Part shown: piece after piece, positions 34,701 to 63,904 of the stretch
Numbering within the stretch: the first letter of the stretch is position 1
How the letters are laid out: each line of letters opens with the position of its first letter
NCBI GenBank assembly: GCA_020796225.1
Contig: CM036759.1
Span: forward strand, 61,660,590 to 61,724,589
Length of the DNA stretch: 64,000 bases
Direction: 5' to 3'
Source of the DNA: Arion vulgaris
Taxonomy: Eukaryota; Mollusca; Gastropoda; Stylommatophora; Arionidae
Program-made: the position numbers and the translations under genes
The notes under the pieces: model-generated
What the model was told of the DNA's origin: nothing
The model's database searches: none
What the model saw: only the letters and a program-made list of their open reading frames with translations

Positions 34701-37700
34701 ACAGTACCTTGCACGGTTTTCCCAGGGCGGGTAGTTTCGTTATGCACTAAACGCAACTTGTTCTTTTGCGCTCGGCAAACCTTGCCCAGTACATGTATCT
34801 GCACCAGGCTACCAATGCGGGGTCAGCTGCAATCTTCTCTCGCACCAACACGAGGGTAGACTTTCATTCTTTACGGTCCTGTCTTATTTATTCTTGCCGA
34901 CGGGCTGGCAATGTTTGCCCCTCCTCAGGGCTTCGAGCTTCGCCCTACGTGGGCATACGCTTGGTCACTGGATGCACCTCTCATCCATGTCTGAGACGTT
35001 TCGTTGCTGTTTCTTTGCGTTCAGGGACTTGGGCAATATCTTGTTGGACATCGGTCAGGAGAATTGTGCATTTTATTTGTATGTATCTTTATCGTATTTC
35101 CGTAATTGCACTGCTACCACTACCAGTAATTTCCTCTCCCGATCCCTGCCCTCTTAGCCAGACCAGAACCAGAGTCTGTTTCCAGGGTCACCGCGTGGAG
35201 GTTAGGGGCAGGGTCTTGGTTAGCGCGCCCTCTCGCTAACCCTGGCTCATGTTACCACCATGACCTCATGAGCCTTTTGACCCTGTATCTCTCATCTAAT
35301 CTACTTGTCCCTTCTCATCAAATCTACTGCCCTTCTCATCAAATCTACTGCCCTTCTCATCGTGTATGTAAGTCTATATTGAAAAACCAATAACCAGTAT
35401 GTCTATATGACAACATTCTCTATCTCTACAGTGAAAACATTCAAACTCTGATGATGTTGGCTTATGAAACACTTTGTGAAGCAACAGAGAGTTCTCCCGA
35501 GTGTGCTACCCAGATGTTCTATGCAGTTAGAAATATGTTTGAACTATTCTATCATGTAGTTCCCACATACCATAGCCAGAACTTTGAGGCATTTCCTCAG
35601 ATTGCAGGTATGTCTCCACACATCAGTCATCATAGTTTTTTTTTTGTAGTTAGACATGAAATACATGGCATATCCTTTAGTTATTGGTTACTAAACTCTC
35701 TGGGCAGACCCATAGGTGCTTAGTCTCCCCAACAGATATAGAAGAGTATGCATACTGTTGGTTCCCGTGGCTCACTGATTAAACATACTCCTCACTCTGC
35801 CCCTCTGGAATCCAGTTCTACCTGTACAATGGGTAACTCCAAACTGCTTAAATCGCTGGATTGATTCAACATCTATTTTAGTGTCTTCATCCAACAAGAC
35901 ACTCGCGAAGAGACCAAAGAACATCCCCTTATCCATCTTCAACTCCCCAACAATTGATGCTGTTGATGCAAGCCTGTCCGCTCTCTCATTATCGTAAACA
36001 CCTGCATGCCCAGGACAGTATATACATGTACGCCTCTGGAAGTTAGAAACTTCTATAGACGACATCCATTCATACCAAAACCTGCTCATTTAGATCTTGT
36101 GAAATATCGACTGAGAGTCAGATACAACAACGGTCCCAGTAAATGAAGTATAAAGTTTTATTTTTGGGGAAAAAAATCTAAAATATGTATTTGATATGTT
36201 TGTTACCTGTGTGGTGTCGGGACCCACAAGGGAAGCAAAGAATAGTACCACTGCGACCTACAAGACATGTCGTAAGAGGCGATGATGTAGGACCTAGGGA
36301 AACTACCCTAGTAAATAAAAAGCATTGCAGAAATTGGATGTGCTGGCCTACTTGTAGGCGCATAACTGGCACAATGTACAATCGCTCTTATACTCAAATC
36401 ACATACAAATCACACAGAGTGGTTAACAAGTGGTTGATATGGAGTGTTTGAAGAAGAAGAAATGTTTGTTTTGAGTCTTGTATTCACAATCTGTCATTCT
36501 AATCCATCCTTCAGCACTTCACCACAACAACTGCATGTTTATCGCACACCATCTCCTGACACTAAGCCACCAGTTTGCTCCCAAGTTACCCTCGCCAGAC
36601 AACAAAACCTTTGTGGATCTTATTGAAAAAATCAGACGGAGCGGGGTGGAGGTGTTCCTAGCTCAGTTGAACAGACAACGCTCTCTCTTGCTAGAATACT
36701 TAGGTGGGGCTGATGGTAAGTAACTTGTAGCTGTACAGGCTGCTGTGCTAGTCATAGATTCAGTGCTGTAAGTTAGAGTCTATTGTCTTTACTCAGGTCG
36801 ATGATGGAATTGGTTGTCCACTCTTGCCGTTGAGAGTAGGAGTGGGAGCATTAATTTGCGCTCCAGGGCCAGATGAGTTACATTTGTTGTGTTATATCCG
36901 TGTTTATTTAATGTGGTCTTGATAGTGTCTATCCATCTTTTTCTTGGTCTTCCCTTGGCTCTAGCACCTGATCTCTTTTTATTGTATGCTGTTATTGATG
37001 GTCGGTTGTATTACATTATCATTAAATGTCCAAACCACAGCATGTGTTGTCTTTCAATGTATTCGGTGCATGAAGTTATGCCCACTCTGCTTCTAAAGTC
37101 CTCATTTCATAGTCTTATCTTTCCTGGTGACCCCCACTGCCTTCCTCAAGCAGTTAGTTAGAGTAGCAGTAACTAATGTGTTTCTTTTATCATTCTCTGT
37201 GTTTTGTCGTTTATCGGTTTCTGAGATAGTGCAAGCCCTGTTGCTTGGTATTGTAGAGTTTTAAGACTTCTGTAACTCCATCAATCCCTATTTTTTCTTG
37301 GTTTGTCCCTTTTTCTTCTTTCATTTGTCCTTCTCTGCTTTTCGCTATTAGCCATCACATGTTTAACTGATGATCGGTTTCAAAGATAGTGGACATTCAG
37401 TCACTTGATATGCTGTGATATTGTTGAGTTTTAAGATGTCTGTAACTCCCATGTGTTGGTGGGGCTCACAAGGGGAGCAAAGAATAGTAACACTGTCCTC
37501 ACAAGTCTGCAACAGAACAATTTGTTAGAACAAGGGAGAAACATATAGTAACACTGCGACCTACAGGGCATGTAGTGAGAGGCAACAGTAAGGGTCTAGG
37601 GAAGCTACCCTAGTAAATATAAAGTGTCGCAGACATTGGATGTGCTGGCCTACTTGTAGGCGCATAACTGGCACAACATGCAATCGCTCTTAGGCTCAGA

Positions 37701-40700
37701 TCACATACACATCACAAATAGTGATTAACAAGTGGTTGATATGAAGCGTTCGAAGAAGAAGAATGATGTAACTCCATCAATCCATCTTTTTCTTGGTCTG
37801 CTCTTCCTCTTGAGGATTCGATTTTCAGGTTATACGCCCTTGCAACTGGTGTAGTCGGGTTCATTCTCACCAAGTGGCCAAACCAATTGAGTCTCTATTT
37901 TTCAATGAATCTAACAGGTGTTATTCAAACTGTTCTTCTTATTTCCTCATTTCTTATATGGTATCTTCTTGTTTTATTTACTGCTTTCCTCAAGCACAGA
38001 TTTCACAGATGGTAATTTTCCTTTCTTGTTCTTTTGTCAGTGCCCAAGTTTGGCACTGGTAGCACAACTTTGGTATGTACAGATTGCATTTCTCTCGCGA
38101 TCCCGTACAGATTGCATTTATAATTGTCTTTTAGTCTCTACTGGAATTGCTGGGTGTTTCAAGGTTGGGGTAAGTTGGTATGTAACATTGTTGGCTTGCT
38201 GGATTCTAGTTTCTATCTCTCTGTCCAGTCTACTATCAGACTTGAAGATACTTCTGAGGTATTTTAGTTCTCTTAAATGTGTTTGACCAACATTAATTCA
38301 GGAATGATTACACTCTCCAAATATATTCCAGCGATAAAATAAGTATTAAAAGAATGTTTCACTATTAGATCAGTGTGAGAGACATAATATTTTGTCGATA
38401 GATCAGTGCGAGAGACATAATATTTTGTCGATAGATCAGTGTGAGAGACATAATATTTTGTCGATAGATCAGTGTGAGAGACATAATATTTTGTCGATAG
38501 ATCAGTGTGAGAGACATAATATTTTGTCGATAGATCAGTGTGAGAGACAGATAGATCAGTGTGAGAGACATAATATTTTGTCGATAGATCTGTGTGAGAG
38601 ACATAATATTTTGTCGATAGATCAGTGCGAGAGACATAATATTTTGTTGATAGATCAGTGCGAGAGATAATATTTTGTCGATAGATCAGTGTGAGAGACA
38701 TAATATTTTGTCGATAGATCAGTGTGAGAGACATAATATTTTGTCGATAGATCAGTGTGAGAGACATAATATTTTGTCGATAGATCAGCGTGAGACATAA
38801 TATTTTGTCGATAGATCAGCGTGAGACATAATATTTTGTCGATAGATCAGTGCGAGAGGTTATTCCCTTTTTCATACCTCAAGATATATTGGGCAATACA
38901 GTGTTGGCCTGTATTTTTCATTGACCGCCGACACACGATGGAGATGTTGTCAACATCGTGTAGGCCGTCTTTACTTCCCAGTGCTTTTCCTGGTACCCAT
39001 TTAGGCTGGGTTGACCTGAGAGCTGTAATGGTCTGAAAGAAATTCCATGCCAACTGGAATTGAACCCAGACCACTATCCTAAGAAGCAAATCATTAACAA
39101 CTATGCTACTGTGGCTCTGACTGTTAGATCTGTGCGAGAGACATAAGAGGATGTTTTGTTGATAGATCAGTGAGAGACTAATCCAATATTTTGGTTGCAC
39201 TTTTGTATGAAATGTATTAACTTATATTAGGTCTACAAGGTTTGTTCTGTGCCTGGCTCTGCTTCTAGCAGAGTTGTGGTTGGTTAGTATCTCTTAGGAA
39301 GGGTGAAAAGTGAAAATTAATAGTCTGCTGATGACCTGTAGAACACACACGCTAACTCCACCTCACAGTGTTGTTGCCCAGGAAACTTCACATCTTCTTT
39401 GTTGTTTTTCTGTCAGTCATCAGATCACAGCATCAGTAGCTTCAATGAACTTCATGATTCATATCTTCTTTGTCATTCTTCTGTCAGTCATCAGATCACA
39501 GCATCAGTAGCTTCAATGAACTTCATGATTCATATCTTCTTTGTCATTTCTCTGTCATCAGATCACAGCATCATTAGCTTCAATGAACAGCATGATTCAC
39601 TTTGTTGTCATTCCTTTATTATCAGTCATAAGATCACAGTATGAGATAGCTTCAATGAACCTGTACGTTCTGCTTCTAGTCATCAAAAGGGTCTCTCAGG
39701 CTCAGAAGTCGACTTCCTCTGTATACCATGTTTTCTTACTGTTTTCCTTGTAGAGCTGACATGTTGAGAATTTATTGATGTGAGATGATATTGGACTGTG
39801 ATTTCCAACAGGATTTGGCCGTATGGAAGAGGAAAGCAGCCGAGAGAAGGCAGAGAAAGCTGTCAAACAAGTGACCTTACAACTCGGACATCTTCAGAAA
39901 ATTTGGAAACCAGTCTTACCAATCAACATTTACAAGAAAGCTATGGGTAAGTGCTATGCTATGTTATGCAATTGACATCATGGCACATTAGACATTCCCA
40001 TGCATGCTCTGTCCTCCGCTGGAGCAGCCATCGTAAAGTCCATTTGCTCACCGTACCCATGAGAAGTTGATTAGTATATCTTCCTCTCTCTATCATGAAG
40101 ACGACACTGTCTGGCATGTCCAAACTTAACTCCTAATTCTATTACGCATTCTTTGTCTGAGACCCGCCCGTATCAAATAATTGAGAGCGTACCGCATTGA
40201 TGACATCAGCTCTGTCCATACTTCTGCACGATTGAGTCTGGGAATTGTTTGTAAGAAAGTCAGCACGCTCGTTACCCTACACTCCAGCATGTCCATGTGT
40301 GTACAGTACAGCCAAGTCATTTTCTTGAGATGTGATCTCTGAATACTGTCCACCCATTCCATGCGCAGACTTCCAGATTCAATCCTTTGAAACAAATTCG
40401 AGTCTGATATGATAATCGTATGGGTGGACTGTTGCTCAGCCTTATCCAACAGTAATGGATGATAAATCAATCAGGAAATCACCATTAACATTGGACTGGC
40501 ATGTTGGGCTGCTGGATTTGTTGAGGCTGGGATCAGGGGACCTTTCCAAAGTGCAATGATGGTAGTTCTTTGATAACTTAGAAAGTGCCAATATTATTGT
40601 TCATTTGAGGATGATTGGACATGTCCATAATTGCTCCGATCTCCTCCTAAGCATATATTTCAGTGTGTTTAGACTAACAACTTCCATTCTGTGTTGATTG

Positions 40701-42660
40701 ATGTATCTACAGAGGTTTCTCTCGTGGTTTCCCATCTTGCCGCACCTATCAGTAGACATAACTTGCAGCACCTATCAGTAGACATAACTTGCCGCACCTA
40801 TCAGTAGACATAACTTGCCGCACCTATCAGTAGACATAACTTGCAGCACCTATCAGTAGACATAACTTGCAGCACCTATCAGTAGACATAACTTGCCGCA
40901 CCTATCAGTAGACATAACTTGCTGCACCTATCAGTAGACATAACTTGCCGCACCTATAGTAGGCATAACTTGCACAATTGATGTAGAGAATACCCTTGAT
41001 CTTCTTCGTTGAAATCTTCAGAGCGTATGTTTTCTTTTAGAGCATTGATAATGTCGCTTTTGTCCATAGAAGACCCATACTTGATCACATCATTGCTTGC
41101 CAGTGCATCCACTCTCTCATTGCCCTTCACAACAGAATGACCTCGAGCAAAGATACTAACCACAGGGCAATTACCAAAATATTCGCTGAGTTGAACATTT
41201 CAACTTTCTTTGTTTTTCTATTCTGATCGTGTATTTATTTATTTGTTCGAGCTTTCCTAGTACATCAGATTCTTGGAATATGGTCAGTTCTTGTTCACAC
41301 CCACACACGCTAAGTGGTTAATTTCTTGCGTTACGAATGTCATGAGTTTGAATCTCTACCGCACTGTTCTGCTCGCGAGTGCAATTTTTCATTAGATTAC
41401 CTAGGATTGTTGCCGGAGCTGCGGAGTTCATGCTTTGTGCAATACTCTCAGCAGATGGTGTACCATTTCTGTGAAGAGGGACTGATCGATATGGAGTAAA
41501 ACCCAGTGCAATGAAGTCAATCCTTGGACTTTAGACACCGACTCAATGAGCTTCGATTTGTTCATTTGAAGTGTTTTTTTGGTCAGAGCTTGTTATGATT
41601 TTATGAGGCTCCATCTCTCTCTGCAAGAGTGGTGAAGACTTCTATATAAACCATATAATCTTTTCTCCCAACATTAGACTAAAGAAATGGTATCTCTGAA
41701 GTTGGAGTAAGGCTCACTTGAATGATGAGGGACAATAGTGACAAGAAAAGCAAGCTGTCACGCAAAAATCAGTCTGAGGTGCCATGACTACCAGAATTAA
41801 TAGCGACCAAACAGAAAAAAATGAAATAGAGACCACAACAATATATGTCTTCAACAATAGCTTCACTTAGATCTACTGTCCTGATCATGCAGGTATTCAG
41901 GGGAGTGAGAGAGTGGACATGCTTGCATCGATTGTTGGGGAGTTTATGATGGATATGGGGGAAGTTCTTCAGTCTCTTGGCGACATACTGTTGGATGAGG
42001 ACACTAAAATAAAAGTTGAATCAATACAATGATTTGGGGTGTTTGGAATTGCACGCTGTACAAGTAGAGCTGAATGCTTGAGGGGCAGAGTGAAGTGTGT
42101 TTAACCAGCAAGCCACAGTAACCATCAGTATGCATACTCTTCTAAATCTGTTAGGGGAGACTGAGCACCTATGGGTCTGTCCGGAATGCTGTGAAGTAAG
42201 TTCATTAACCAATAACCAACAATTGCTAGAATAGCTGACATCTACAATTCACGTTTGTGAAAGGTTAACAATTTTTTTCTTATCTTCTTACACAGGTAAA
42301 CTGATTCAGGCAGTTGTTGGAAGCATAAGTGATAGCATCTCATCGCTTGAAGACATAGCCCAAGAAGCAACTCACAGATTAGATGTCCTTCTGGTGCTCA
42401 TAGAGCAGACAGCTGGAGAGATGTTGACCTCACCGGGAGAAGTGGCAGCCGCTGAGCTGCTCCGACATGTACCAGATTGGGCTAGGCTGACAGAGGTTAA
42501 ATTTATGTTGGCTGCCAGTTTGTCAGAAATTGCTGACCGCTGGGCAGAGGGTACAGGACCATTGGCTCTCTCATTCACTCCAATGGAGGTGAAGCAAATG
42601 ATCAGAGCACTTTTTCAGAACACAGACAGACGAGCAAATTTACTGGTTGCCATTAAGTGA
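22742..42660 (+). CDS. ZW10: ZW10 kinetochore / RZZ and NRZ complex subunit (ten exons)
   Basis: Coding exons are 22742-22781, 25730-25932, 27783-27902, 29497-29637, 30863-31547, 33380-33666, 35432-35607, 36515-36715, 39812-39946 and 42296-42660, giving about 783 codons (human ZW10 has 779). ZW10 is the Rod-ZW10-Zwilch subunit that recruits dynein and Mad1-Mad2 to kinetochores. In interphase it acts in the NRZ tether for Golgi-to-ER vesicles. Family landmarks: the N-terminal SSFVAKIMEHA, the LSTGEF segment, the exon 5 middle region, [54 protein letters not shown], and the C-terminal EIADRWAEGTGPLA and IRALFQNTDRR. Nine of ten exons join in phase. Exon 6 carries a 1- or 2-base discrepancy (see its entry). 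Introns are full of repeats. Confidence 0.96.
22795..23530 (+). mobile_element. LINE RT C-terminal fragment, best preserved
   Basis: Starts 14 bases after ZW10 exon 1. An uninterrupted frame of about 200 codons runs to 23409: SMNIKKTEVMVVSKKQ, QVHRFKYLGTFLTPDG, MYGSESWTLNKQSIRSLEAT, MWFYRRMLRIPWTAKKTNVE, RFFGHIMRREGLEHL, RDRGRQRRR. This is the post-RT thumb and C-terminus of an RTE/BovB-like LINE. Its intact frame suggests a younger insertion. Confidence 0.85.
23543..23936 (+). mobile_element. SINE-A copy (ZW10 intron 1)
   Basis: Head tctgttgtgtagaggctaga, then ctatccctcgtggagccatc, a body with agatcctgatctcagtgtag, and tail gcagtgatgatggtcctatc aatcaat. Confidence 0.8.
24260..24683 (-). mobile_element. 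Penelope-like element terminal region, minus arm
   Basis: One arm of an inverted repeat with 24834-25290. On the minus strand it contains cgtattacattcttatgctt, tttcttttccgttctattcc and gcttgataaaggccttgttg. Confidence 0.75.
24660..24809 (-). pseudogene. Penelope-like GIY-YIG endonuclease C-terminal fragment
   Basis: The minus strand reads DPVATHFNDTGHSGACDVQV, then DRSRFALENRLISLYGTLRP. This matches the end of the Penelope GIY-YIG endonuclease, where HFN-x-GHS and E-x6-L-x-TL-P are typical. It identifies the element but is only a fragment. Confidence 0.7.
24834..25290 (+). mobile_element. Penelope-like element terminal region, plus arm
   Basis: Starts inside the endonuclease 3' coding end (aatcggttgatttctttgta) and continues through the non-coding end. 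It carries an internal tandem duplication of about 75 bp (24880-25030) that the minus arm lacks. Confidence 0.75.
25430..25565 (-). mobile_element. SINE-C fragment (ZW10 intron 1)
   Basis: The reverse complement shares ctttctgaatggtgaagtct atttttaccattc with 44580-44650. It lacks the tRNA-like head. Followed by a gatgaagaagaagag tract. Confidence 0.6.
25730..25932 (+). CDS. ZW10: ZW10 exon 2
   Basis: A 203-bp exon after ataacccag, ending CAG before gtatgt. It reads KLEQKTFHDKLDVLTMKL through MATIEKTWNTQ, the N-terminal helical region of ZW10. The combined length with exon 1 is 243 bases, in frame. Confidence 0.9.
25950..26345 (+). repeat. ~75-bp tandem repeat (ZW10 intron 2)
   Basis: Five units of ttgtataactgttttctata with agttattattggctcttatg and catggaaaaactatttttct. 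Most units also end with an acceptor-like tttcttacttctacag. Confidence 0.88.
26346..26650 (-). repeat. ~60-bp tandem repeat (ZW10 intron 2)
   Basis: Five units of ttctgtcccgtttgacacat with acgacttccacaaga. The open frames are artefacts. Confidence 0.85.
26750..26880 (+). mobile_element. SINE-B fragment
   Basis: gtgttgccatggccgcaagg, aagcaaagaatagcaac, then gtagggctggctaccctatc. Degraded. Confidence 0.55.
26880..27200 (+). mobile_element. LINE endonuclease-start fragment
   Basis: A reading with breaks gives KRSRIGTWNVRNM-like (the APE endonuclease start GTWNVR) and then TWHKLIEVLCPNRG, the LINE C-terminal sequence. This looks like an internally deleted element. Confidence 0.5.
27240..27735 (-). 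mobile_element. LINE RT C-terminal fragment (ZW10 intron 2)
   Basis: The minus strand reads VATCGCESWTFNKIVEKHI, CHRRVLCISWTEKRTNRRN and RKRKLRYFGHIK. It ends about 45 bases before exon 3. Confidence 0.7.
27783..27902 (+). CDS. ZW10: ZW10 exon 3
   Basis: A 120-bp, phase 0 exon between cattaacag and gtgggt. It reads VKGQLSLSTGEFHNLNQEL onward to ADIYELLE. The human counterpart has HVSTGEFTDLKQQL. Confidence 0.93.
28010..29300 (+). mobile_element. LINE with RT end and RNase H domain
   Basis: With frame breaks it reads DRLRYLGITFDCNLSFKHHV, VMSVLDYRLCILTISRSQCE, VYTDG, MEVEAITAALHWLSGTSFTG, YCPGHAGVCRNERADRLAS. The RNase H residues (D, E, D, and the GHAGV...NERAD end) are recognisable; this is typical of I/Ingi-like LINEs. 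Relatives at 35680-36150 (-), 41860-42220 (+) and 61140-61690 (+). Confidence 0.75.
29300..29440 (-). mobile_element. LINE fragment before ZW10 exon 4
   Basis: The minus strand reads RLLKLNGRDKIPDTEVLIKS, matching KLDRHNKIPDTEVLTRAKIP at 62845-62910 (+). Confidence 0.65.
29497..29637 (+). CDS. ZW10: ZW10 exon 4
   Basis: A 141-bp, phase 0 exon between gttgtcaacag and gtaagt. It reads TSARSLESKKYSQAAVTLL through ILAAMKTEFR. It matches the ZW10 segment KKYVTAAQRL and sits just after a minus-strand LINE fragment. Confidence 0.92.
29695..30110 (+). mobile_element. LINE RNase H tail and CCHC-like fragment
   Basis: Reads SHCDIASNESADVLAKNGRA (RNase H end), IIIRLHTRHRRHLHRLGI and CHYQQAEQTPEYVLQGCP. 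It has a continuous frame of over 110 codons. Located in ZW10 intron 4. Confidence 0.7.
30225..30430 (+). mobile_element. Penelope-like element terminal fragment
   Basis: cgtcagtcctgttgtctcg, ctcgataaaggccttttggt tgaaac, and gtaaagctagagtactttg match the other Penelope ends in the window. Confidence 0.6.
30430..30790 (+). mobile_element. SINE-B copy, headless (ZW10 intron 4)
   Basis: cggagtttgtgatttgtaca, ggggtaaaatagggtgcaat, gtgccgggcccgaaggaagc, ctagtaaatgaaaagcatcg, then ttcaagaagaagaaa. Lacks the tRNA-like head. Confidence 0.75.
30863..31547 (+). CDS. ZW10: ZW10 exon 5 (long middle exon)
   Basis: A 685-bp exon after attcctgtag, ending CAAG before gtgagt. It reads IRFATLECNLSDLWHDLL through IGVTQLLQ. 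It covers the divergent middle of ZW10. Only the ends align readily from memory, so the family assignment of this exon leans on position and phase. Confidence 0.9.
31740..32010 (-). mobile_element. Degraded SINE-B and short CTTTGTCACCTCCCATGAC repeats
   Basis: Three copies of tttgtcacctcccatgac precede a minus-strand SINE-B remnant (cgcctcttatgacatacctt gtaggtc). Confidence 0.5.
32075..32415 (+). mobile_element. hAT-like MITE, copy 2 (ZW10 intron 5)
   Basis: 341 bp flanked by the 8-bp duplication ctctacat at 32067-32074 and 32416-32423. The ends catagattcccaaac and ttttggaacacatg are imperfect inverted repeats. No transposase. Confidence 0.75.
32510..32930 (-). mobile_element. LINE fragment, weak (ZW10 intron 5)
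   Basis: The minus-strand pieces recall LINE C-termini (spacing of a GHIMR-like and a WTEDNN-like segment), heavily broken. Confidence 0.4.
32930..33260. repeat. Imperfect direct repeats with gccgtatattt
   Basis: Three diverged copies containing ccgtatatttttagcttgga tct and gccgtatatttggacttgg. Origin unknown. The motif recurs as gccgtattttgggctttgtg at 34190. Confidence 0.45.
33380..33666 (+). CDS. ZW10: ZW10 exon 6 with apparent frameshift
   Basis: A 287-bp exon between tctaaccag and gtattt. Its first part reads QLLKLRFIQPDNTVLMQYVQ and NINI in the frame set by exon 5. From about 33456 the homology (CQQKSQTTLEKAHSLMTSD and onward to MPKCRI) continues in another frame, while the first frame meets a TGA soon after. 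Exon length and neighbouring phases agree that one base is extra or two are missing. The break falls at a TTTT run near 33455-33459. It could be an assembly error, a polymorphism or a true disabling change. Confidence 0.88.
33710..33965 (+). repeat. 18-19-bp pyrimidine-rich repeat
   Basis: About 11 copies of ctcacatctactttctccc, then looser tcatcaaatctacttgcccc copies that are split by the insertion at 33989. Confidence 0.88.
33989..35283 (-). mobile_element. Composite retroelement with 14-bp target-site duplication
   Basis: Flanks tgtatctctcatct at 33975-33988 and 35284-35297 are identical. The minus-strand 3' end is cgatcgaagaagaagaaag. The 5' end (about 35100-35283) carries a module also seen at 45970-46200 and 47510-47680 (ggtgaccctggaaa, ggctaagtgggtaggga-like). 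The interior is GC-richer than its surroundings and on the minus strand reads RLVHNETTRPGKTVQGTVRL and EELRLVMPNGTASLGATGQG, a protein I do not recognise. Confidence 0.8.
35432..35607 (+). CDS. ZW10: ZW10 exon 7
   Basis: A 176-bp exon between atctctacag and gtatgt. It completes Ser, then reads ENIQTLMMLAYETLCEATES and [20 protein letters not shown], both strongly ZW10-like. Donor phase is 1. Confidence 0.95.
35680..36150 (-). mobile_element. LINE RNase H 3' end (ZW10 intron 7)
   Basis: The minus strand reads FWYEWMSSIEVSNFQRRTCI, YCPGHAGVYDNERADRLAST and FKQFGVTHCTGRTGFQRGRV. It ends at gttattggttactaaact (as plus strand), the shared 3' end of this family. Confidence 0.75.
36205..36470 (+). 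mobile_element. SINE-B copy (ZW10 intron 7)
   Basis: gtgtggtgtcgggacccaca, gcaaagaatagtaccactgc, ctagtaaataaaaagcattg, ggcctacttgtaggcgcata and the tail gaagaagaagaaat. It ends about 45 bases before exon 8. Confidence 0.8.
36515..36715 (+). CDS. ZW10: ZW10 exon 8
   Basis: A 201-bp exon between catccttcag and gtaagt. It reads [20 protein letters not shown], then FVDLIEKIRRSGVEVFLAQL, ending LGGAD. Human ZW10 reads [20 protein letters not shown] here. Confidence 0.96.
36780..37440 (-). mobile_element. LINE C-terminal fragment (ZW10 intron 8)
   Basis: The plus strand ctatccatctttttcttggt cttccc and aatgtccaaaccacagcatg are reverse complements of GRPRKRW- and MLWFGHL-type LINE ends. Broken. Confidence 0.55.
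37445..37770 (+). mobile_element. SINE-B copy with internal insert
   Basis: tgttggtggggctcacaagg, gcaaagaatagtaacactg, then about 60 extra bases, then gcgacctacagggcatgtag and the usual 3' half with tail gaagaagaag. Confidence 0.7.
37770..38290 (-). mobile_element. LINE RT C-terminal fragment
   Basis: The plus strand ccatctttttcttggtctgc, accaagtggccaaaccaatt and cagtgcccaagtttggcact are reverse complements of LINE C-terminal motifs. Confidence 0.6.
38365..38865 (+). repeat. 33-bp minisatellite (ZW10 intron 8)
   Basis: About 15 units of gatcagtgtgagagacataa with tattttgtcgata. Because the unit is 33 bp, both strands stay open and yield false 11-residue repeat proteins. Confidence 0.95.
38880..39125 (-). 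mobile_element. SINE-D (tRNA-headed)
   Basis: The minus strand has a tRNA-like head (gccacagtagcatagttgtt, then gggttcaattcc) and a body with ctaaatgggtaccaggaaaa. It interrupts the end of the 33-bp array, whose unit reappears at 39120-39200. Confidence 0.6.
39395..39660 (+). repeat. ~75-bp tandem repeat before ZW10 exon 9
   Basis: Nearly four units of tcatcagatcacagcatcag with tagcttcaatgaacttcatg and cttctttgtcattcttctgt. Each unit has a pyrimidine tract followed by gtcag. Confidence 0.88.
39812..39946 (+). CDS. ZW10: ZW10 exon 9
   Basis: A 135-bp exon between tttccaacag and gtaagt, phase 1 to 1. It reads GFGRMEEESSREKAEKAVKQ through [11 protein letters not shown], matching human VLPVNIYCKAMG. 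Confidence 0.95.
40055..40510 (-). mobile_element. LINE RNase H fragment (ZW10 intron 9)
   Basis: The minus strand reads IIISDSNLFQRIESGSLRME, WVDSIQRSHLKKMTWLYCTH and then a broken GHAGV...NERAD end. Confidence 0.7.
40735..40975 (+). repeat. 26-bp minisatellite (ZW10 intron 9)
   Basis: Nine units of cctatcagtagacataactt gccgca with gcagca and gctgca variants. Confidence 0.95.
40976..41280 (-). mobile_element. LINE RNase H fragment
   Basis: The minus strand reads VSIFARGHSVVKGNERVDAL and SSMDKSDIINALKENIRSED, the end of an RNase H domain and what follows. Confidence 0.65.
41285..41530 (+). mobile_element. SINE-B 5' half
   Basis: Head acacgctaagtggttaattt, B-box-like gagtttgaatctct, then ctaggattgttgccggagct and gagtaaaacccagtgcaatg. 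The 3' half is missing. Confidence 0.65.
41860..42220 (+). mobile_element. LINE RNase H 3' end (ZW10 intron 9)
   Basis: With breaks it reads CPDHAGIQGSERVDMLAS, VGEFMMDMGEVLQSL and ends cattaaccaataaccaacaa. It ends about 75 bases before exon 10. Confidence 0.65.
42296..42660 (+). CDS. ZW10: ZW10 exon 10 (C-terminus and stop)
   Basis: A 365-bp terminal exon after cttacacag. It reads KLIQAVVGSISDSISSLEDI through LLVAIK and the stop TGA at 42658-42660. It contains EIADRWAEGTGPLA and IRALFQNTDRR, the most conserved end of the family. Confidence 0.97.
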
Positions 42661-50530: not shown

Positions 50531-52545
50531 TGGACTACAGATAAGTTACGATAAGACAAAATATAATGTGGACTACAGATAAGTTACGATAAGACAAAAT
50601 ATAATGTGGACTACAGATAAGTTACGATAAGACAAAATATAATGTGGACTACAGATAAGTTACGATAAGACAAAATATAATGTGGACTACAGATAAGTTA
50701 CGATAAGACAAAATATAATGTGGACTACAGATAAGTTACGATAAGACAAAATATAATGTGGACTACAGATAAGTTACGATAAGACAAAATATAATGTGGA
50801 CTACAGATAAGTTACAATACGACAAAATATAATGTGGACTACAGATAAGTTACGATACGACAAAATATAATGTGGACTACAGATAAGTTACGATACGACA
50901 AAATATAATGTGGACTACAGATAAGTTACGATAAGACAAAATATAATGTGGACTACAGATAAGTTACGATAAGACAAAATATAATGTGGACTACAGATAA
51001 GTTACGATAAGACAAAATATAATGTGGACTACAGATAAGTTACGATAAGACAAAATATAATGTGGACTACAGATAAGTTACGATAAGACAAAATATAATG
51101 TGGACTACAGATAAGTTACGATAAGACAAAATATAATGTGGACTACAGATAAGTTACGATAAGACAAAATATAATGTGGACTACAGATAAGTTACGATAA
51201 GACAAAATATAATGTGGACTACAGATAAGTTACAATACGACAAAATATAATGTGGACTACAGATAAGTTACAATACGACAAAATATAATGTGGACTACAG
51301 ATAAGTTACGATAAGACAAAATATAATGTGGACTACAGATAAGTTACGATAAGACAAAATATAATGTGGACTACAGATAAGTTACAATACGACAAAATAT
51401 AATGTGGACTACAGATAAGTTACAATACGACAAAATATAATGTGGACTACAGATAAGTTACGATAAGACAAAATATAATGTGGACTACAGATAAGTTACG
51501 ATAAGACAAAATATAATGTGGACTACAGATAAGTTACGATAAGACAAAATATAATGTGGACTACAGATAAGTTACGATAAGACAAAATATAATGTGGACT
51601 ACAGATAAGTTACGATAAGACAAAATATAATGTGGACTACAGATAAGTTACGATAAGACAAAATATAATGTGGACTACAGATAAGTTACGATAAGACAAA
51701 ATATAATGTGGACTACAGATAAGTTACAATACGACAAAATATAATGTGGACTACAGATAAGTTACGATAAGACAAAATATAATGTGGACTACAGATAAGT
51801 TACAATACGACAAAATATAATGTGGACTACAGATAAGTTACGATAAGACAAAATATAATGTGGACTACAGATAAGTTACGATAAGACAAAATATAATGTG
51901 GACTACAGATAAGTTACGATAAGACAAAATATAATGTGGACTACAGATAAGTTACGATAAGACAAAATATAATGTGGACTACAGATAAGTTACGATAAGA
52001 CAAAATATAATGTGGACTACAGATAAGTTACAATACGACAAAATATAATGTGGACTACAGATAAGTTACGATAAGACAAAATATAATGTGGACTACAGAT
52101 AAGTTACAATACGACAAAATATAATGTTGACTACAGATAAGTTACGATAAGACAAAATATAATGTGGACTACAGATAAGTTACGATAAGACAAAATATAA
52201 TGTGGACTACAGATAAGTTACGATAAGACAAAATATAATGTGGACTACAGATAAGTTACGATAAGACAAAATATAATGTGGACTACAGATAAGTTACGAT
52301 AAGACAAAATATAATGTGGACTACAGATAAGTTACGATAAGACAAAATATAATGTGGACTACAGATAAGTTACGATAAGACAAAATATAATGTGGACTAC
52401 AGATAAGTTACGATAAGACAAAATATAATGTGGACTACAGATAAGTTACGATAAGACAAAATATAATGTGGACTACAGATAAGTTACGATAAGACAAAAT
52501 ATAATGTGGACTACAGATAAGTTACGATAAGACAAAATATAATGA
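50531..52545 (+). repeat. 38-bp satellite-like array, 2.0 kb
   Basis: About 53 nearly identical units of gtggactacagataagttac gataagacaaaatataat. Two principal unit types differ at gataag versus aatacg, with one gatacg hybrid and one gttgac variant. Confidence 0.97.
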
Positions 52546-54354: not shown

Positions 54355-57300
54355 TCATATTACTTTTTTTGAACCAGATATCCTTCTTTTTAGAGGCTTC
54401 CCTAACGATGCCAGATATTCAAGTACTTCTAGGAAAAGCTCAAGTGTGGCGTTGACCATAATGTTGTATATTGGCATACCTATTGTTGCATATATAACAA
54501 TGAACGTGTAAAATGAAGGCTTTGGAAGAATGTCTCCGAACCCTGTGGTAGACAGTAGAACGTATATGAAATAAAGTGAATCCCAGAACTCTACTTTAGT
54601 TTCCCATGTGTAGAAAACGATACTGCCCATGAATACGTAAAGTATATTCAAACTGTAGAGAAAGAACAGAGGCATATGGAACTTCTCAAGTACAGGCACT
54701 GCCGGTTTCTTATCCTCCTGTCTTGAGAAACCCAACCCTGCAAAACCTGAAAACGCGCTGTAGTCGTGGCGAAGAAGAGGAGTTTTTTTCGTAATCGCTG
54801 CAAACTGTTTCGCCCTTCTGAGGTTAAAAGATAAACCTCGTCCAGAAACAAATTCTTCTTCTTCGTCGTCGTCATCATCATTATTATCGTCATCAAAATC
54901 AAGGAGTCTCCCTGAAGAATATATTGTACACATTTCATCTTCATCTTCTTCTTCGTCGTAATTCATGTTGATATCAAGTGACTCTTTCATCTTCTGACTC
55001 TTGGGGACTTCCTTCAATGTGTTATCTAGCCATTTCTTCGTGTTACTTCGCTCTTTTATCGTCTGAATGTTGGGGATTTCATGCAGTGTAGTGTCTAGCA
55101 ATTGATTCGTTTTACGTCGCTCTCTTATCGTCTGACTGTTAGGGATTTTCTGCAGTGTAGTGTCTGACAACGGCTTGAAATTAAAGAGCCGTTCTTGGCT
55201 TTTACCACGTAATTCTGCAGGAGGGAATTCACTATAAGAAGGGCATCTGTCCACGTTCCCGTGTACCATGTGATTATGCTGCCCCCATGCTTTTAGTGGT
55301 ATGTCAGTGTTCTCTTCTTTGATTCCAACGAAGGTGGTGCCAGACTGACGCACGACGCCACACGAAACATTTTTACAGAAGAATTGTGAAGAATGGTTGC
55401 CATTTATACACCCTTGGCAACTTATTGCTTGTTTGGTTACGCTTCCGGTTGGCCCACATTTTCCACAACAAACCTGTCGGACGGATGTGTCTCTTGCATC
55501 GGTTACACAGAATGTTCCGGATTTGTCTCTCACTGTGAATCCATCATTGACTGACAAAAACTGATCGATGGCTTCTAAACTGGGCTGAGTAAAGTTTGAA
55601 GATTGTCGAAACTTGGATGAGATTCCACTTCCCTGACTTGTTTCTCCTGAACCCAGCATGTTTATGGTACGGAAGGCTTTGTGCATCACCGCGCATATCT
55701 GATCTTTGTTCGACTTGCTAATTATGCGTGGGGATGAAGCTTGAGAAATGGAGTCTGACTTGAGTCTTTGTTTGTGTGTGTCTACTTCTTCCAGCTGAAG
55801 GGCATGATCTAAAGAAGAGGCAAGTGTGTTTATTCTTTGGTTTACTTCCGTGATTGACCTAGTTTTACTGGAGTGAGCGCTGCTGTCATTTTCTCTGAGC
55901 AGAAACCTCCCAGGTTCGTGATGGGATATTCTGATAAGTTGTCTGCAGCTCGGGACATGCATAATTGACTGTTTGCCCAAGTGTGTGATTGTGCTAGCTT
56001 TTTTGCTTGAGTATTGGTCAGATTCAGAACGAGTTTGATCTTGGCTTATACCACGTATGTGATCCATGTCACTGTGGTACTTCAGTTCTTCTGACTTGTG
56101 GAAAGTGTTTGAAAGTGGGTCGCCAGGATCGTGGGTGTAAGCAGTGACCTGTACATGTGTGGGGGTCATCTTGTGAACGAATTTGTGGGATATGGGGTGC
56201 CCTGATGTGCTGGTCAGGTAATTTTCTGATTGGCGGGTCAAGCAGTATCCTGATGTGTCAACAACATTGTGTCCTGATTTATGTGAGAAGTCTTGTACCG
56301 ATGTGTGGGTCATGTCTTGTACCGATGTGTGGGTCAAATCAGATACGGATGTGCGGGCCAAGTCATGCACTGATGTGTAGGCCATATCTTGCCTTGATGT
56401 GTGGGTCAAGTCATGCCCTGATGTGTGGGCCGTATCTTGCCTTAATGTGTGGGCCAAGTCATGCCCTGATGTGTGGGCCGTCTCTTGCCTTAATGTGCGG
56501 GCCAAGGCATGCACTGATGTGCAGGAAACCTTGTTCACCGACGCACTTGCATTATTTTTCTGAATCTGGACATTGTTCTCAGCCAAGTCAAAACTCGTAG
56601 GAGGATCTCTGTTGCAGACCTCACTTAGACTGATAAGGTTACCGTTAGTAGTTAAACATTTCAATTTCTGACCAGTTTGTGCTACCTCTAGAGCCGTAGT
56701 AGTCCCACTGCAAAGTTGAGAACCACTGAAAACAATGTTTCTTTGATCTCCTTGTGCATTGTCTTTGTCAATGTCTTGTGGCACAAAATCTATCATTGTT
56801 TTGAGGTTTGAACCTGCGAACGTTTGATTATAAGATTTGCGATTTTCTCTGACATCCTCAACCGTGTTCTTCGTGTTTGCGGAACTATGTATTGAAAATG
56901 TGTTCGTGGGATAAAGCTTAGGTGAATCATTGACGACCGACTTGTAGCCAGTACGTTTTCTCATGCCTAGTCTGAGTGTATCACTGATCTGAGAAACGAT
57001 ATCGCTATGTGTCCATTGACTAGTAATACTCGTCTCTGTCTGCTCACTAATAATATTCGTATTTTCATCCATGTAACAGAGCTCGCACGTTCTTTGCTTG
57101 ATTTGATTGTTGTCGTCAGATTGTTCTTCTCTTGTTTGAAACTCCTCACTTGCTGCTACATGTCTCCCCTCCAGCAGATTCTTCTTTTGAATAAGTTTAG
57201 ATTGTGTCATAAAGTTAGAAGTCGGTCTCGTGACAGAAATATGTTTGTGTTCAGACTCGAGAATCGTGTACTGATTCACCAGTTCTTGTGTCTTGTTCTG

Positions 57301-60300
57301 TCCTAGAGCGGATTCTGGTATGGGTTCATTGTTCCCAGGTAGTGAAACATTGACGCTGTCCAGACCTATCTCCGACCATTTCTTTATAACCAGAGCCGAA
57401 CTATCATGATGAGATTCAGAGTTTAAGAAATTCTTCCTTTCTGTGGAATCTTTAAGACAACCATTTGGATGAACGTTTGTCTGCACTAGTTTACATGTTG
57501 CTCTGTGTTCTTGTGACTTGTTATCTGTCGGACAAGGGTCTGTTTGAGTGAGCATATCACTACTAGTTGTAGAAAACTTGTTAGTACTGATAGGTCCGTT
57601 GTCCATTGCACACCTTGAGAAACTAAGAATCGGTGTAAATTTAGTTAAACAACCGTTTCCTGGTCGATTATCTGTCGTAGAAATGTTCGAGTTTATGGGG
57701 TTATGACCAGTGACCAAACAGTCTCCGGAGAATGTGCTCTGTGCATGGTCACGCAAATCAGTTGGAGGAATGTCAGCAACATTTGAGTACAATATGTCTT
57801 GAGTTGGAGGAATGTCAGCAACATTTGAGTACAATCTGTCTTGAGTTGGAGGAATGTCAGCAACATTTGAGTACAATCTGTCTTGAGTTGGAGGAATGTC
57901 AGCAACATTTGAGTACAATCTGTCTTGAGTTGGAGGAATGTCAGCAACATTTGAGTACAATCTGTCTTGAGTTGGAGGAATGTCAGCAACATTTGAGTAC
58001 AATCTGTCTTGAGTATTCCGTTCTGTCTGTGTCGGTCTTCTAACTATGTTTTTCACATTTGTCGAAAGAGCGGTAATCCCTGCACATGTTGTGGACGGTG
58101 ACACACTAGTAGCATTCTCCAGCAGCCATGTAGGTTCATATTTATGATCAAGTTCTGTTCTCGGACGTTCGGGTCGTGGTAGAGGTATCAAGTGTTCTTC
58201 TATCCGTTGTGATGCGGGTAACATTAAAGCATACATCTTCTGTCCATGCTGATGTGGAATATGTTTAATATGTCCTTCTGCATTCGTTGAATTAATCATC
58301 TCATTGTTTCTCCCTGTCAACGTAGGAACTGTAGAGGAATCGTGTCTTTGTTCTGCTTGGCCTGTACATCTGAACAGATAGACACCCTGGGGTGCACGCA
58401 TATCAATGACGTCATCAGTACGTGTATTCTGCGTGCTACTCTCGTTTTGTTCCACGTATCTACACATGTGTACATGGTGTTGTAGTGGACGCATGTGCGC
58501 TTGAATTATTTTGTTGTTCCCTGCTGTATTGTTGGGACAGAAGATCTGAATTTCATGATGACAAGGCATATTTGATGATGTCGATCTGGTACTAGGCACT
58601 GTTGTATCTTTGGAAGTGAAAACCTGTGCCTGGTGCTTTAATGGAACTGCGGCTCTGGGCACATGTATCTGATGCTCTATTGGAACTGTGGCTCTGTATA
58701 CATGTGCCTGATGTTCGAGTGGAACTGCGGCTCTGGGCACATGTATCTGATGCTCTATTGGGAAATGTGGCTCTGGCCACATGTGTCTGGTGTTCTAATG
58801 AAACCATGGCTCTGGGCACATTGGCCTGGTGTTCTAATGGAACCATGGCTCTGGGCACATTGGCCTGATGTTCTAATGGAGACATGGCTCTGGGCACATG
58901 TGCCTGGTGTTCTAATGGAACCATGGCTCTGTATACATGTGCCTGATGTTCGAGTGGAACTGTAGCTCTGGATACATGTGCCTGGTGTTCTAATGGAACT
59001 GTGGCTCTGGGCACATGTGTCTGGTGTTCTAATGGAGACATGGCTCTGGGCACATGTGTCTGGTGTTCTAATGGAACCATGGCTCTGTATACATGTGCCT
59101 GATGTTCGAGTGGAACTGTGGCTCTGGATACATGTGCTTGGTGTTCTATTGGAACTGTGGCTCTGGATACATGTGCTTGGTGTTCTATTGGAACTGTGGC
59201 TCTGGATACATGTGCCTGGTGTTCTATTGGAACTGTGGCTCTGGATACATGTGCCTGGTGTTCTATTGGAACTGTGGCTCTGGGCACATGTGCCTGGTGT
59301 TCTATTGGAACTGTGGCTCTGGATACATGTGCCTGGTGTTCTAATGGAACTGTGGCTCTGGGTATATGTGCCTGATGTTCTAAAGGAACTGTGGCTCTGG
59401 GTACATGTGCCTGGTCTTCTATTGGAACTGTGGCTCTGGATACATGTGTCTGGTGTTCTAATGGAACTGTGGCTCTGGGTACATGTGCCTGGTCTTCTAT
59501 TGGAACTGTGGCTCTGGATACATGTGCCTGGTGTTCTAATGGAACTGTGGCTCTGGATACATGTGCACTATGCTCTAATGGAACCATGGCTCTGTGTACA
59601 TGTGCCTGGTGTTCTAATGGAGCTGTGGCTCTGGATACATGTGCACTATGCTCTAATGGAACCATGGCTCTGCGTACATGTGCCTGGTCTTCTAATGGAA
59701 CCATGGCTCTGTGTATATATGCACTATGCTCTAATGGAACCATGGATCTGGATACATGTGTCTGGTATTCTAATGGAACTGTGGCTCTGTGTACATGTGC
59801 CTGGTCTTCTAATGAAACTGTGGCTCTGGATACATGTGCACTATGCTCTAATGGAACCATGGCTCTGAGTACATGTGCCTGGTGTTCTAATGGAGCTGTG
59901 GCTCTGGATACATGGACCTGGTGTTCTATTGGGTATTCCTTCATGATCTCAAATCTCTGCGGATATGGATAATGTTGTCTAATTTGAGTAGAGCTTGATA
60001 CCACATCCGATTTTGTTGCATGCCCAACATCTTCTTGGGACAATGGGGTGACATCCTGCACATCAAATGTGACAGTTGCCTTCATATCATTGTGTCCTAA
60101 ATCCTTGTGTCCTGTTCTGCATAAGACTTCTTTGGCGTAATCGAAACTAACATACTCCATACATTTGATCATCTCTTCTGAAGACATACAAGAAAACTGA
60201 TTACATAATAACAAAGCATCCTGGCAATTTCTGATCCGGTAGTGAGGAAACTCTGGTGCCGTCTTACCTTTACGGGCTTCAATACTTGCATGAAGAAGGT

Positions 60301-60647
60301 AATCAATGCAGGAACGTGTGCTGTTAAGATACTTAGAACTCTTTGTTATATTTGAAAGTTTGTAACCACTAGCAACAAGACGCTGGTATTTCAATCGATC
60401 TCTTTTCGACATTAAATAAATAGGATCTTGTGCGTTGTCAATGCCAGTGCTATCAGAACCTTCAGTCTCTGACTCGCTGAGTAAGAGGGTCTTACTCCAG
60501 GAGTGTCGTTTACGATAATGAGTATTTTTATTTTCATTATCGTCATCGTCGTCATCGTCACTTTCGTCATCATCATCGTCCTCCTCTGCAGCCTTCTTCT
60601 TCTTGGCTTTCGACTTGGCAGAAGTTGGCTTTTTATCTTTGGTATAG
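54355..60647 (-). CDS. K2P giant terminal exon: ~1,990-residue loop, TM3, pore 2, TM4
   Basis: A 6,293-bp exon read as minus strand. In exon residue order: basic run KSKAKKKKAA (about 11-20), acidic Asp-rich run (21-37), a Cys-containing helical segment (79-200), 13-residue repeats (about 238-676), 14-residue repeats (about 877-962), 8-residue His/Ser/Thr repeats (about 1375-1505), a cysteine cluster (about 1722-1765), three 23-residue repeats (about 1824-1890), an acidic tract (about 1894-1932), TM3 (about 1993-2014), pore 2 TTGFGD (about 2033-2038), TM4 (about 2045-2072), and the tail ending KKVI. It stays open for more than 2,000 codons apart from a single one-base shift at about 58760. 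That strongly suggests selection on the reading frame. The stop codon is the complement of 54355-54357. Confidence 0.87.
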
Positions 60648-63600
60648 CTAGTGATGTTGATTGAAACAATAAATGTGTGTTACTAGAATAATAGAAAGTT
60701 GATTAGAACAATAAATTTGTGTTACTAGAATAATAGAAAGTTGATTAGAACAATAAACGTGTGTTACTAGAAGAATAAAAGTTGATTAGAGCAATAAACG
60801 TGTGTTACTAGAAGAATAAAAGTTGATTAGAACAATAAACGTGTGTTACTAGAAGAATAGAAAGTTGATTAGAACAATAAACGTGTGTTACTAGAAGAAT
60901 AGAAAGTTGATTAGAACAATAAACGTGTGTTACTAGAAGAATAGAAAGTTGATTAGAACAATAAATGTGTGTTACTAGAAGAATAGAAAGTTGATTAGAA
61001 CAATAAACGTGTGTTACTAGAAGAATAGAAAGTTGATTAGAACAATAAATGTGTGTTACTAGAATAATAGAAAGTTGATTAGAATAATACATGTGTGTTA
61101 CTAGAAGAATAGAAAGTTGATTAGAACAGACCGGATCAGATCTGAAGAAAACCGTGGGGAGGCTGCTGTGATACTAAGTACTGCTGCCCTCCATTTGCTC
61201 TCTGAGACTTCATTTACTGGAGCCGTTGTTGTATTCAACTTATAGTCGATGCTTCACAATATCTGAAAGGACATGTTTCGGTATGATTGGATGTCGTCTA
61301 TAGAAGTTTCTAACCTCCAGCGGCTTACGGGGATATACTGCCCTGGGCATACGGGTGTTTGCGGTAATGAGAGAGCAGACAGGTTTGCATCAACATCATC
61401 GATTGTTGGGGAGTTGAAGATGGATAAGGGGATGTTCTTCGGTCTCTTCATGACTGTATGTTGGATGAGGATACTAAAATAGATATTGAATTGATCCAGC
61501 AATTTAAGCAGTTTGGATGTATCCGTTGTACAGGTAGAACTGGATACCTGAGGGGCAGAGTGAAAAGTTTGTTTAATCAGCAAACCACGGGAACAATCAG
61601 TGTGCATTCTCTTTGATATTTGTTGGGGGAGACTGAGCACCTATGGGTCTGCCCGGAGTGCAATGACGTCAGTTTAGTAACCAATAACTAATAGCGACGT
61701 TTCGGTCGTAGACCTTTGTCAGGAACAAATACAAACAAGGAACACTAAATAAACTCAAACATAGGTTTCAATGAGAGTAGAGATATAATAATAATAATTC
61801 CTTTCGTACCGATATACATTACGCAAGCAATTTCTGCATATCGCTCTATCCTGGACAACTTACTCAATCTCCTCCATGGAAATGAGACCGACATTTCTTG
61901 CCTGTCTCAGCAACGTTCGTTTCAGTGTCTCCTTACGTCGTCTACTCTTTCTTGAACCCTTTGCATCCCACTTCAATACCTGCTTTGATATTCTTTGATC
62001 ATTTCTTCTCAAGGTGTGTCCAACATATCTCCATCTTCTCTTTCTTATAACAGTTGTTACTAGTGGTTGACCAGACATGTCTCTGATTTCATCACTTCTC
62101 CTGCATTCGTTCCATTTTATGTTCATTATTTTTCGCAGATATTTATTTTCAAATGCATTCAACTTGCTTTCTATATCATTTTCCAACTCTCGCTGGCATA
62201 TGTTAGGATTTATACAACTCTCGCTGGCATATGTTAGGATTTATACAACTCTCGCTGGCATATGTTAGGATTTATACAACATTTGAATTGAAAATTCGTC
62301 ATCTAGTTCTAATACTACAAATGAGACGATTCAATTAGGATGTAGTATAGGTCAAGTGGGCGATTCTTTTTTGTGACGGTGTGTAATTATGGCGCGGGAT
62401 GGGGCGGTGATGAACAAATGTGACGAAGGGCGAGCTAGTCAAAATCGGTTTAAATAGTAAATAGGCCAAAATGCAAAGCGTACCTGGCAAATTTTGATTT
62501 GTCAATGGTGCTGCTTTTATCTTGAACACCCTGTATATAACTTACAGTTCCATATTTTATCTAGCACCTTCACACATAGCGTCGATTGTAGTAGACAACT
62601 ACTATTCGTTCGTTTCATAGTTACACATACGTGTTTCGTTTCATCTGATACATTCAGTGTACTGTTGCTAGGAGCTCAAGAAAACTAAACAACTTCCACA
62701 CATGCTGTCTAAGCACATGCTGTATAAACACATGCTGTCTAAGCACATGCTGTATAAACACATGCTGTCTAAGCACATGCTGTATAAACACATGCTGTCT
62801 AAGCACATGCTGTATAAACACATGCTGTCTAAGCAGAATACTAAAACTAGACCGACATAACAAAATTCCAGATACCGAAGTGCTCACAAGAGCAAAAATC
62901 CCAAGCGTCAACACCCTTGTGCAGAAGGCCCAAGTGAGATGGGCCGGTCACGTTGCTCAGATGTCTGATTAACGCATCCCAAAACAATTGATGTATGGCG
63001 AGTTTGAAGGGGACAGACGTTCTGCTGGTGGACAGAAAAACACTTTAAAGACACTCTTAAAGTGTCTATGAAATGCTTGGATATAGATACCACGTGCGGG
63101 GAATCCCTAGCGCAAGATCGTCAAATGTGGCGCTGTAACAACACAAGAGGAACCCACATAGCTGAGAATCATTACACACAGAAAACGAGCTGCGTGAAAA
63201 GACAGAACACACAACACCCACATGTCTAACCTTGATCACCTGACGCAGGGGATTGTGTTCTAGGATTGGACTCTACAGTCACCTCCGCACACACCAGAGA
63301 GGTGCAGCCGCACGCGTCTGAGGCTGTTGTCATCATCGCTTACGATGGACGGCTATTTAAAAAAAAACCTGATATGAGCTAGATGTGGACGGTGTTACTA
63401 TTGTCAGAGTCATAAATTGAAAGGTACTTCTACTGTTTAGTCAAGGTGGCGGACAAGACGATATTCATCCCAAAAATGTATGTATGAAAGAGTTGAAACT
63501 TTTAAAAGCTGATGTTACTTTGACAATTGGTAGCATAATTTCTTTTTTTAACATTATGACTAGAAAAGGATACCCAAAGAGCAAAAATAACAATCACCCA

Positions 63601-63904
63601 AGCCACTAGAACAGCGCAAGACAAAACCAGAAAACCACGCTACTTAGCAATAACAACCTGCTAACAGTGTGACGACCAAAGAAGAAGATTGATACTCATA
63701 ATATAAATTATGCAAAGATGATCGTTGTGTTTGATGCTTACGGTTTTATCAATCTTTGGACAAAGCCCCAGGCTGAGAATATCATCTTGCTGCATGAAGC
63801 ACCAACTTCTGAGCTGAGAGTGAACAACAATGGCATCCCGTTCAGACCGTAGATGACAGTGCCTAGTCTGCCGTTGACTGTAGCGGGCACAATGTTACCC
63901 CAGC
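54355..63904 (-). CDS. Two-pore-domain potassium channel with giant TM2-TM3 loop, 3' portion
   Basis: Exons read on the minus strand are 63904-63742 and 60647-54355. The first gives the end of pore 1 (GWGNIVPAT) and TM2. It ends CC before gtaagc and joins in phase to C-TAT at the ctag acceptor of the second exon. The first exon starts inside the first glycine codon of the filter, a splice position I recall as conserved in K2P genes. The second exon encodes about 2,096 residues: roughly 1,990 of loop, then TM3, pore 2 (TTGFGD) and TM4 and a very short tail. K2P channels carry background potassium current. The WET-x2-EF segment before pore 2 and the long loop recall TRESK (KCNK18), but subfamily placement is uncertain. 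TM1 and the first half of pore 1 lie beyond base 64000. One base-level frameshift occurs near 58760. Confidence 0.88.
54963..55185 (-). repeat. Coding repeat: three 23-residue units in K2P loop
   Basis: Units LSDTTLQKIPNSQTIRERRK, LLDTTLHEIPNIQTIKERSN and WLDNTLKEVPKSQKMKES, each near 69 bp apart. Amphipathic and charged; function unknown. Confidence 0.8.
56130..56525 (-). repeat. Coding repeat: ~15 octapeptide units in K2P loop
   Basis: 24-bp units such as HTSGHDLA, HTLRQDTA, HTSVQDMT, becoming irregular toward the 3' side. Rich in His, Thr, Ser and Asp. Confidence 0.85.
57755..58015 (-). repeat. Coding repeat: six 14-residue units in K2P loop
   Basis: 42-bp units TQDRLYSNVADIPP, five identical in protein and one with Ile for Arg. 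Almost identical DNA suggests recent expansion. Confidence 0.92.
58615..59940 (-). repeat. Coding repeat: ~34 units of 13 residues in K2P loop
   Basis: 39-bp units with consensus RATVPLEHQAHVS. Changes are T/M/A at position 3, L/I at 6, H/D/Y at 8 and variable 13. One unit near 58760 has an extra base that shifts the frame. Confidence 0.93.
60652..61125 (-). repeat. 41-42-bp minisatellite abutting the K2P acceptor
   Basis: About 11-12 units; minus strand taacacacatttattgttct aatcaactttctattcttctag. The last, diverged unit (attgtttcaatcaacatcac tag) is the acceptor of the giant exon. Confidence 0.9.
61140..61690 (+). mobile_element. LINE RNase H 3' end (K2P intron)
   Basis: With breaks: STAALHLLSETSFTGAVV-like, RYDWMSSIEVSNLQRLTGIY, CPGHTGVCGNERADRFASTS, and the 3' end gtttagtaaccaataacta. 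Confidence 0.75.
61690..61760 (-). mobile_element. Penelope-type terminal motif
   Basis: The reverse complement reads cctgacaaaggtctacgacc gaaacgtcgc, a helix flanked by CTGA and GAAAC, as in Penelope-like ends. Hammerhead-like but with A where an active core has G. Confidence 0.45.
61790..62190 (-). mobile_element. LINE RT C-terminal fragment (K2P intron)
   Basis: A continuous minus-strand frame of about 108 codons: ENDIESKLNAFENKYLRKIM, SDEIRDMSGQPLVTTVIRKR, RWRYVGHTLRRNDQRISKQV, RRKETLKRTLLRQARNVGLI. Parent sequence of the 53121-53890 array. Confidence 0.8.
62187..62282 (+). repeat. 31-bp repeat, three units
   Basis: tctcgctggcatatgttagg atttatacaac three times; the last part continues into the LINE-like aacatttgaattg. 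Confidence 0.93.
62283..62690. other. K2P intron, unassigned
   Basis: cggtgtgtaattatggcgcg with ggatggggcggtgatgaaca suggests a transposon-like patch, but no family is recognised. Confidence 0.3.
62695..62838 (+). repeat. 30-bp repeat, about five units
   Basis: cacatgctgtctaagcacat gctgtataaa repeated; inside it, cacatgct recurs every 15 bases. Confidence 0.95.
62840..63170 (+). mobile_element. LINE RT C-terminal fragment (K2P intron)
   Basis: Reads KLDRHNKIPDTEVLTRAKIP, AQVRWAGHVAQMSD then, after one stop, IPKQLMYGEFEGDRRSAGGQ and TTCGESLAQDRQMWR. Classic LINE C-terminus. Confidence 0.75.
63171..63740. other. K2P intron with one LINE 3' tail
   Basis: 63555-63700 matches 17595-17705 (agcaaaaataacaatcaccc, agaacagcgcaagacaaaac, gaagaagatt). 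The rest is unassigned. 63905-64000 is the start of the next upstream intron. Confidence 0.45.
63742..63904 (-). CDS. K2P exon: end of pore 1 and TM2
   Basis: A 163-bp exon after ctgtacacag (minus strand), ending CC before gtaagc. With the split Gly codon it reads GWGNIVPATVNGRLG, then TVIYGLNGMPLLFTLSSEVG (TM2), then AWGFVQRLIK. K2P pore 1 normally has GYGN; tryptophan at the tyrosine position is unusual. Confidence 0.88.

Follow-up and report, generated by a model that had tools for sequence, protein, structure and literature searches.

A divergent two-pore-domain potassium channel gene of Arion vulgaris with a proposed giant, probably facultative cytosolic arm between its pore halves

Can the two pore halves of a two-pore-domain potassium (K2P) channel be separated by about 1,990 residues? 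This question is raised by a locus of Arion vulgaris, where a long open exon ends in the second pore of such a channel; an earlier note on this DNA had read the locus as a K2P channel with a TM2–TM3 loop of that length. The locus was analyzed within a window of 64,000 nucleotides (contig CM036759.1, positions 61,660,590 to 61,724,589), and its features are collected in Table 1. We favor, with a probability of about 0.58, a divergent K2P channel whose TM2–TM3 loop has grown into a giant, probably facultative cytosolic arm.

Table 1. Features of the K2P locus, in positions of the window
Feature	Position	Strand	Remarks
K2P exon: end of the P1 filter, (G)WGN, and TM2	63742..63904	-	Pfam Ion_trans_2, E = 1.6e-5
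Intronic 42-bp array with 11 pyrimidine-rich acceptor-like AG/TAAC motifs	60656..61128	-	
Giant exon, 2,096 residues (1,988 before TM3, then TM3-P2-TM4 and stop)	54355..60647	-	start 60647 placed by phase; weak acceptor
15-bp acidic repeat (poly-Asp), close after TM2	60539..60580	-	
Candidate internal donor AAG/GTAAGA	60266..60267	-	top-scoring among the 309 GTs of the exon
39-bp (13-aa) in-frame tandem array, 34 units read out	58625..59932	-	holds the single-base shift near 58.76 kb
42-bp (14-aa) in-frame array	57760..58014	-	
24/48-bp (8/16-aa) in-frame array	56300..56525	-	
69-bp (23-aa) in-frame array	54982..55165	-	
Candidate internal acceptor, exon start 54817	54818..54819	-	in phase with the TM2 exon; score 3.53, mid-reference; 45-residue loop
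Candidate internal acceptor, exon start 54757	54758..54759	-	in phase; score 0.75; 25-residue loop
TM3, P2 (TTGFGD), TM4 and short C-terminal tail	54355..54681	-	Pfam Ion_trans_2, E = 9.6e-10; best solved relatives THIK-1 and TWIK-1

Translation of the frame showed that the coordinates, the strand, and the open exon of about 2,096 codons with one single-base shift, as described in the earlier note, are correct at the DNA level. The exon would contribute its full 2,096 residues if entered at 60647. Two stop-to-stop frames of the minus strand, 58592–60679 (695 aa) and 54355–58794 (1,479 aa), overlap within the 39-bp array. The 13-aa motif (PLEHQAHVSRATV-like) of the former resumes in the latter with its register unchanged; therefore, the two were read as a single open frame, broken near 58.76 kb by a shift of one base. 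Read literally, the assembled sequence stops the long frame 685 residues past the 63742/60647 junction, and downstream of the shift 1,468 codons are still open. The end of the exon was likewise as described, with TM3, a TTGFGD pore, and TM4 followed by the stop.

A search of the TM3–P2–TM4 part against K2P families confirmed its identity. This second pore, with its GFGD filter, matched Pfam Ion_trans_2 (E = 9.6e-10), and its best solved relatives among the best 60 of 73 matches were THIK-1 (KCNK13, 7.6e-9) and TWIK-1 (KCNK1, 1.7e-8). The first pore filter followed by TM2 also matched Ion_trans_2 (1.6e-5), and its best solved relative among 15 matches was TASK2 (0.0025). The WGN of this exon aligns with the YGN of TASK2 and the FGN of TREK, placing a Trp in the first filter, (G)WGN, at a position that is Tyr or Phe in the aligned K2Ps; a full-text literature search for GWG together with selectivity filter and potassium channel returned no match. 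Exon 63904–63742 seems to begin inside the codon of the first filter Gly, a presumed residue since the upstream exon lies beyond the window. The positions of TM1, the cap, and the P1 pore helix also fall beyond the window end at 64000. The Pfam scan took in three stretches of the locus, so another TM3 exon could lie in between. No relative was found among viral contigs, seven loci in bacterial and archaeal genomes (all with bacterial titles) matched the pore part, and Rfam gave nothing at the gathering threshold. Judged by its sequence, the gene is a K2P channel gene, divergent and metazoan.

Several measures bear on whether the long frame is coding. In the codons outside the arrays, no stop was found in frame (0/1,440), compared with 5.6% in the five other frames; assuming independent codons, the log10 P of such a stop-free run is about −36. 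The periods of the arrays within the exon were all divisible by three (5/5), compared with 13/44 elsewhere in the window (Fisher p = 0.0045). Three-base periodicity was above that of most null stretches in four of the five segments examined, all of which avoid the four large arrays; here, 3/102, 5/102, 4/98, and 4/102 null stretches reached the value of the segment; for the fifth segment (55170–56290), 14/98 did so. The null consisted of mutually overlapping stretches of matched length from 9.5–25 and 43–54 kb, and among the segments one contains TM3–TM4 and one the small acidic repeat. When codon usage was scored after training on 641 neighboring codons, even TM3–TM4 went unrecognized, so this test was uninformative. 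No other part of the window resembles the exon at the DNA level (best E 0.31), so the exon is not a copy of a local repeat. The stop-free codons outside the arrays, together with array periods divisible by three, place the frame beyond chance. We conclude that the frame was translated, at least up to recent times, and that its repeats tolerate change.

The arrays make up 1,966 of the 6,293 exon bases, so the term "repeat scaffold" used in the earlier note suits about one third of the exon and not the remainder. The 39-bp array has 34 units, and 150 differences were counted among them, of which 49 were synonymous (45.4 expected), and by this synonymous share purifying selection on the array residues was not seen. 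The window as a whole is very rich in minisatellites, with 44 arrays outside the exon covering about 14.5 of 57.7 kb, the highest-scoring being a 38-bp array of 53 copies at 50531–52544. Open frames resembling the ends of non-LTR reverse transcriptases were noted by eye at 22786–23409 (+) and 61860–62240 (−).

In K2P channels, the TM2–TM3 loop is cytosolic. The predicted arm starts Lys-rich, turns Asp-rich, and ends near a second acidic tract, which precedes TM3 and resembles the poly-Asp tract after TM2 (62.5% match over 16 aa). Ser and Thr together account for 18.0% of the arm, and CxxC occurs three times, compared with 0.7 in shuffles. Its charge-hydropathy is borderline, with 9 of 20 blocks of 100 residues on the disordered side. 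Single-sequence structure models were of low confidence for the first 238 residues of the arm (mean pLDDT 43.6) and poor for TM3–TM4 (55.6), and the low-confidence TM3–TM4 model gave no match to PDB structures. The first 233 loop residues had nine weak matches to PDB sequences (best E 0.028), on the Lys/Asp-rich start. Pfam hits to Lysostaphin_N, TX13_rpt, QLQ, and PBP1_TM, which fell in repeat or acidic regions, were under the curated cut-offs and were set aside as low complexity.

The link between the TM2 exon and the giant exon was proposed in the earlier note from their phase. The phase holds: the TM2 exon (63904–63742), with the donor ACC/GTAAGC at 63741, joins 60647 in phase (CC + C). 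The acceptor speaks against the junction, with a score of −2.2, under all 14 reference acceptors (−0.23 to 6.85), whereas the acceptor of the TM2 exon scored 1.75, within the reference range. The score is a simple one, and the acceptors used as its reference were picked by eye within AKT-like and ZW10-like genes of the opposite strand. These genes are represented by AKT-like kinase exons at 218–9196 (+), with six clear tblastn matches to human AKT1, and by ZW10-like exons at 25702–42657 (+), where some matches are weak. The 60647 acceptor is the AG of the last, shortened unit of the intronic 42-bp array; splicing into this array would meet a stop after 7 residues from each of the first ten sites and after 90 residues from the last. 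At the other end of the exon, neither AATAAA nor ATTAAA was found on the minus strand within about 2.3 kb past the stop (54355–52000), and a donor-like AAA/GTAATA was seen by eye just before the stop; therefore, a further 3′ exon is possible. Exons above 300 nt reportedly splice poorly if they are not flanked by short introns (PMC12457776), which counts against the long form, although the giant exon may be terminal.

The weak acceptor gives room to a K2P channel of ordinary length, in which the TM2 exon would normally be spliced to 54817 or 54757, leaving 45 or 25 loop residues, and the long frame would be a minor or tissue-specific 3′-splice-site extension. The score at 54817 lies in the middle of the range of the 14 local acceptors and this site is in phase, in contrast to the −2.2 of 60647. 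The spacing between the P1 and P2 filters would be 146 via 54817 and 126 via 54757, near the 127 of THIK-1 and the 108 of TWIK-1 (hand-counted from alignments), compared with 2,089 when the entire exon is retained. However, the exon is not enriched in acceptor-like sites: 5 of its 521 AGs score at least 3.53, whereas the window rate (177/8,122) predicts about 11. Moreover, a scarcely translated segment would not remain stop-free over 1,440 codons. We regard this alternative as possible, at well under even odds. Another arrangement would enter at 60647 and remove an exitron from donor 60267 to acceptor 55808, 55214, or 54737, leaving a loop of about 150–500 residues; the splice would take out the frame shift and three of the five arrays (four with 54737). 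This donor is the strongest donor-like site in the exon; 6 of 8,011 GTs in the window score as high, and 0.23 such sites would be expected in the exon. Four acceptors are phase-compatible with it (60177, 55808, 55214, and 54737), and the last three score 4.55, 3.6, and 2.15. Known exitrons are free of stops, occur within long exons, and tend to encode disordered segments (PMC4484396). According to the same paper, however, their splice sites are weaker than those of other introns, so that a strong donor is no special mark; one donor against 0.23 expected is weak evidence, and a phase match arises one time in three. An exitron of this size appears unlikely. A separate 90-nt in-frame stretch at 60267–60178 (−), lying between the strongest donor-like site and an acceptor scoring 3.98, is a possible tiny exitron. 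The candidate internal splice sites are about as common as expected by chance and prove nothing, yet they forbid assuming that all 1,990 residues are retained.

The shift within the 39-bp array could also be real. The assembled sequence would then encode half a channel, reaching to TM2 plus 685 residues, and the long form would be recently broken, being lost, decayed, or dominant negative. The shift is present in the assembled sequence; however, the 1,468 codons past it remain open, and assemblies often carry single-base errors in repeats, which leaves this explanation quite improbable. The least probable of the alternatives is that the long frame is part of a separate transcript, which starts independently and does not include the TM2 exon. 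The TM2 exon lies 3.1 kb away and is linked by phase alone, but the frame continues into TM3–P2–TM4, by itself half a K2P channel. Taken as a whole, the K2P gene and a frame of some 2,000 codons running into TM3 stand from the earlier reading, whereas a loop of 1,990 residues in every channel is uncertain, given the weak acceptor and the in-phase alternatives.

Among known channels, human TRESK (KCNK18, K2P18.1) has a TM2–TM3 loop of 121 residues and a C-terminal tail of 29 residues (PMC10206819). The predicted channel resembles TRESK in its proportions only, with a long TM2–TM3 cytosolic loop and a very short C-terminal tail of about 15 residues past the TM4 helix of a low-confidence model, provided that the protein truly ends at the 54355 stop. 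The loop of the giant exon, counted up to TM3, would be some 16 times longer, and the pore halves match THIK, TWIK, TASK2, and TREK chains among the matches listed; no TRESK chain was found among the 15 first-pore matches or the best 60 of 73 second-pore matches. The loop contains no strict PxIxIT and no LxVP calcineurin motif, and its relaxed motifs (one broad PxIxIT versus 2.1 in shuffles; one LxLP versus 0.6) are close to or below the shuffled counts. A TRESK-like calcineurin regulation was therefore rejected as a demonstrated feature. The long exon with in-frame tandem repeats also recalls repeat-grown disordered exons and exitrons (PMC12457776, PMC4484396), with the difference that here the exon separates one pore half of a channel from the other. 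In the titles and abstract openings searched, no K2P loop longer than that of TRESK was named.

Under our preferred reading, the giant, probably facultative arm, the loop would have expanded into a single giant exon as tandem repeats multiplied in frame and other sequence was inserted, and at least one transcript would translate the long segment. Between its pore halves, each subunit would carry an arm reaching about 1,990 residues at most, with two arms per dimeric channel, and the arm could act as a flexible cytosolic tether and as a platform for docking and phosphorylation. Because in-phase, arm-skipping acceptors adjoin TM3, how much of the arm is kept probably differs between splice forms. 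A regulatory or clustering role, as the earlier note supposed, may be envisaged. More tentatively, and with rather long odds, the choice between 60647 and 54817/54757 might form a splice switch that toggles the K2P channel between a normal short loop and an arm of ~2,000 residues, perhaps tuned by the acceptor-like repeats upstream.

Should splicing remove the arm, the locus would be an example of how reading an exon alone can mislead. If it is translated, the loop would far exceed the 121 residues of TRESK, the longest K2P TM2–TM3 loop met in the literature covered, and the two K2P pore halves would be able to fold and assemble across an insertion of 2,000 residues. The channel would then offer a natural test of how a leak channel can be gated through TM2–TM3 by a cytosolic arm and of how a linker becomes a regulatory domain as its repeats grow.
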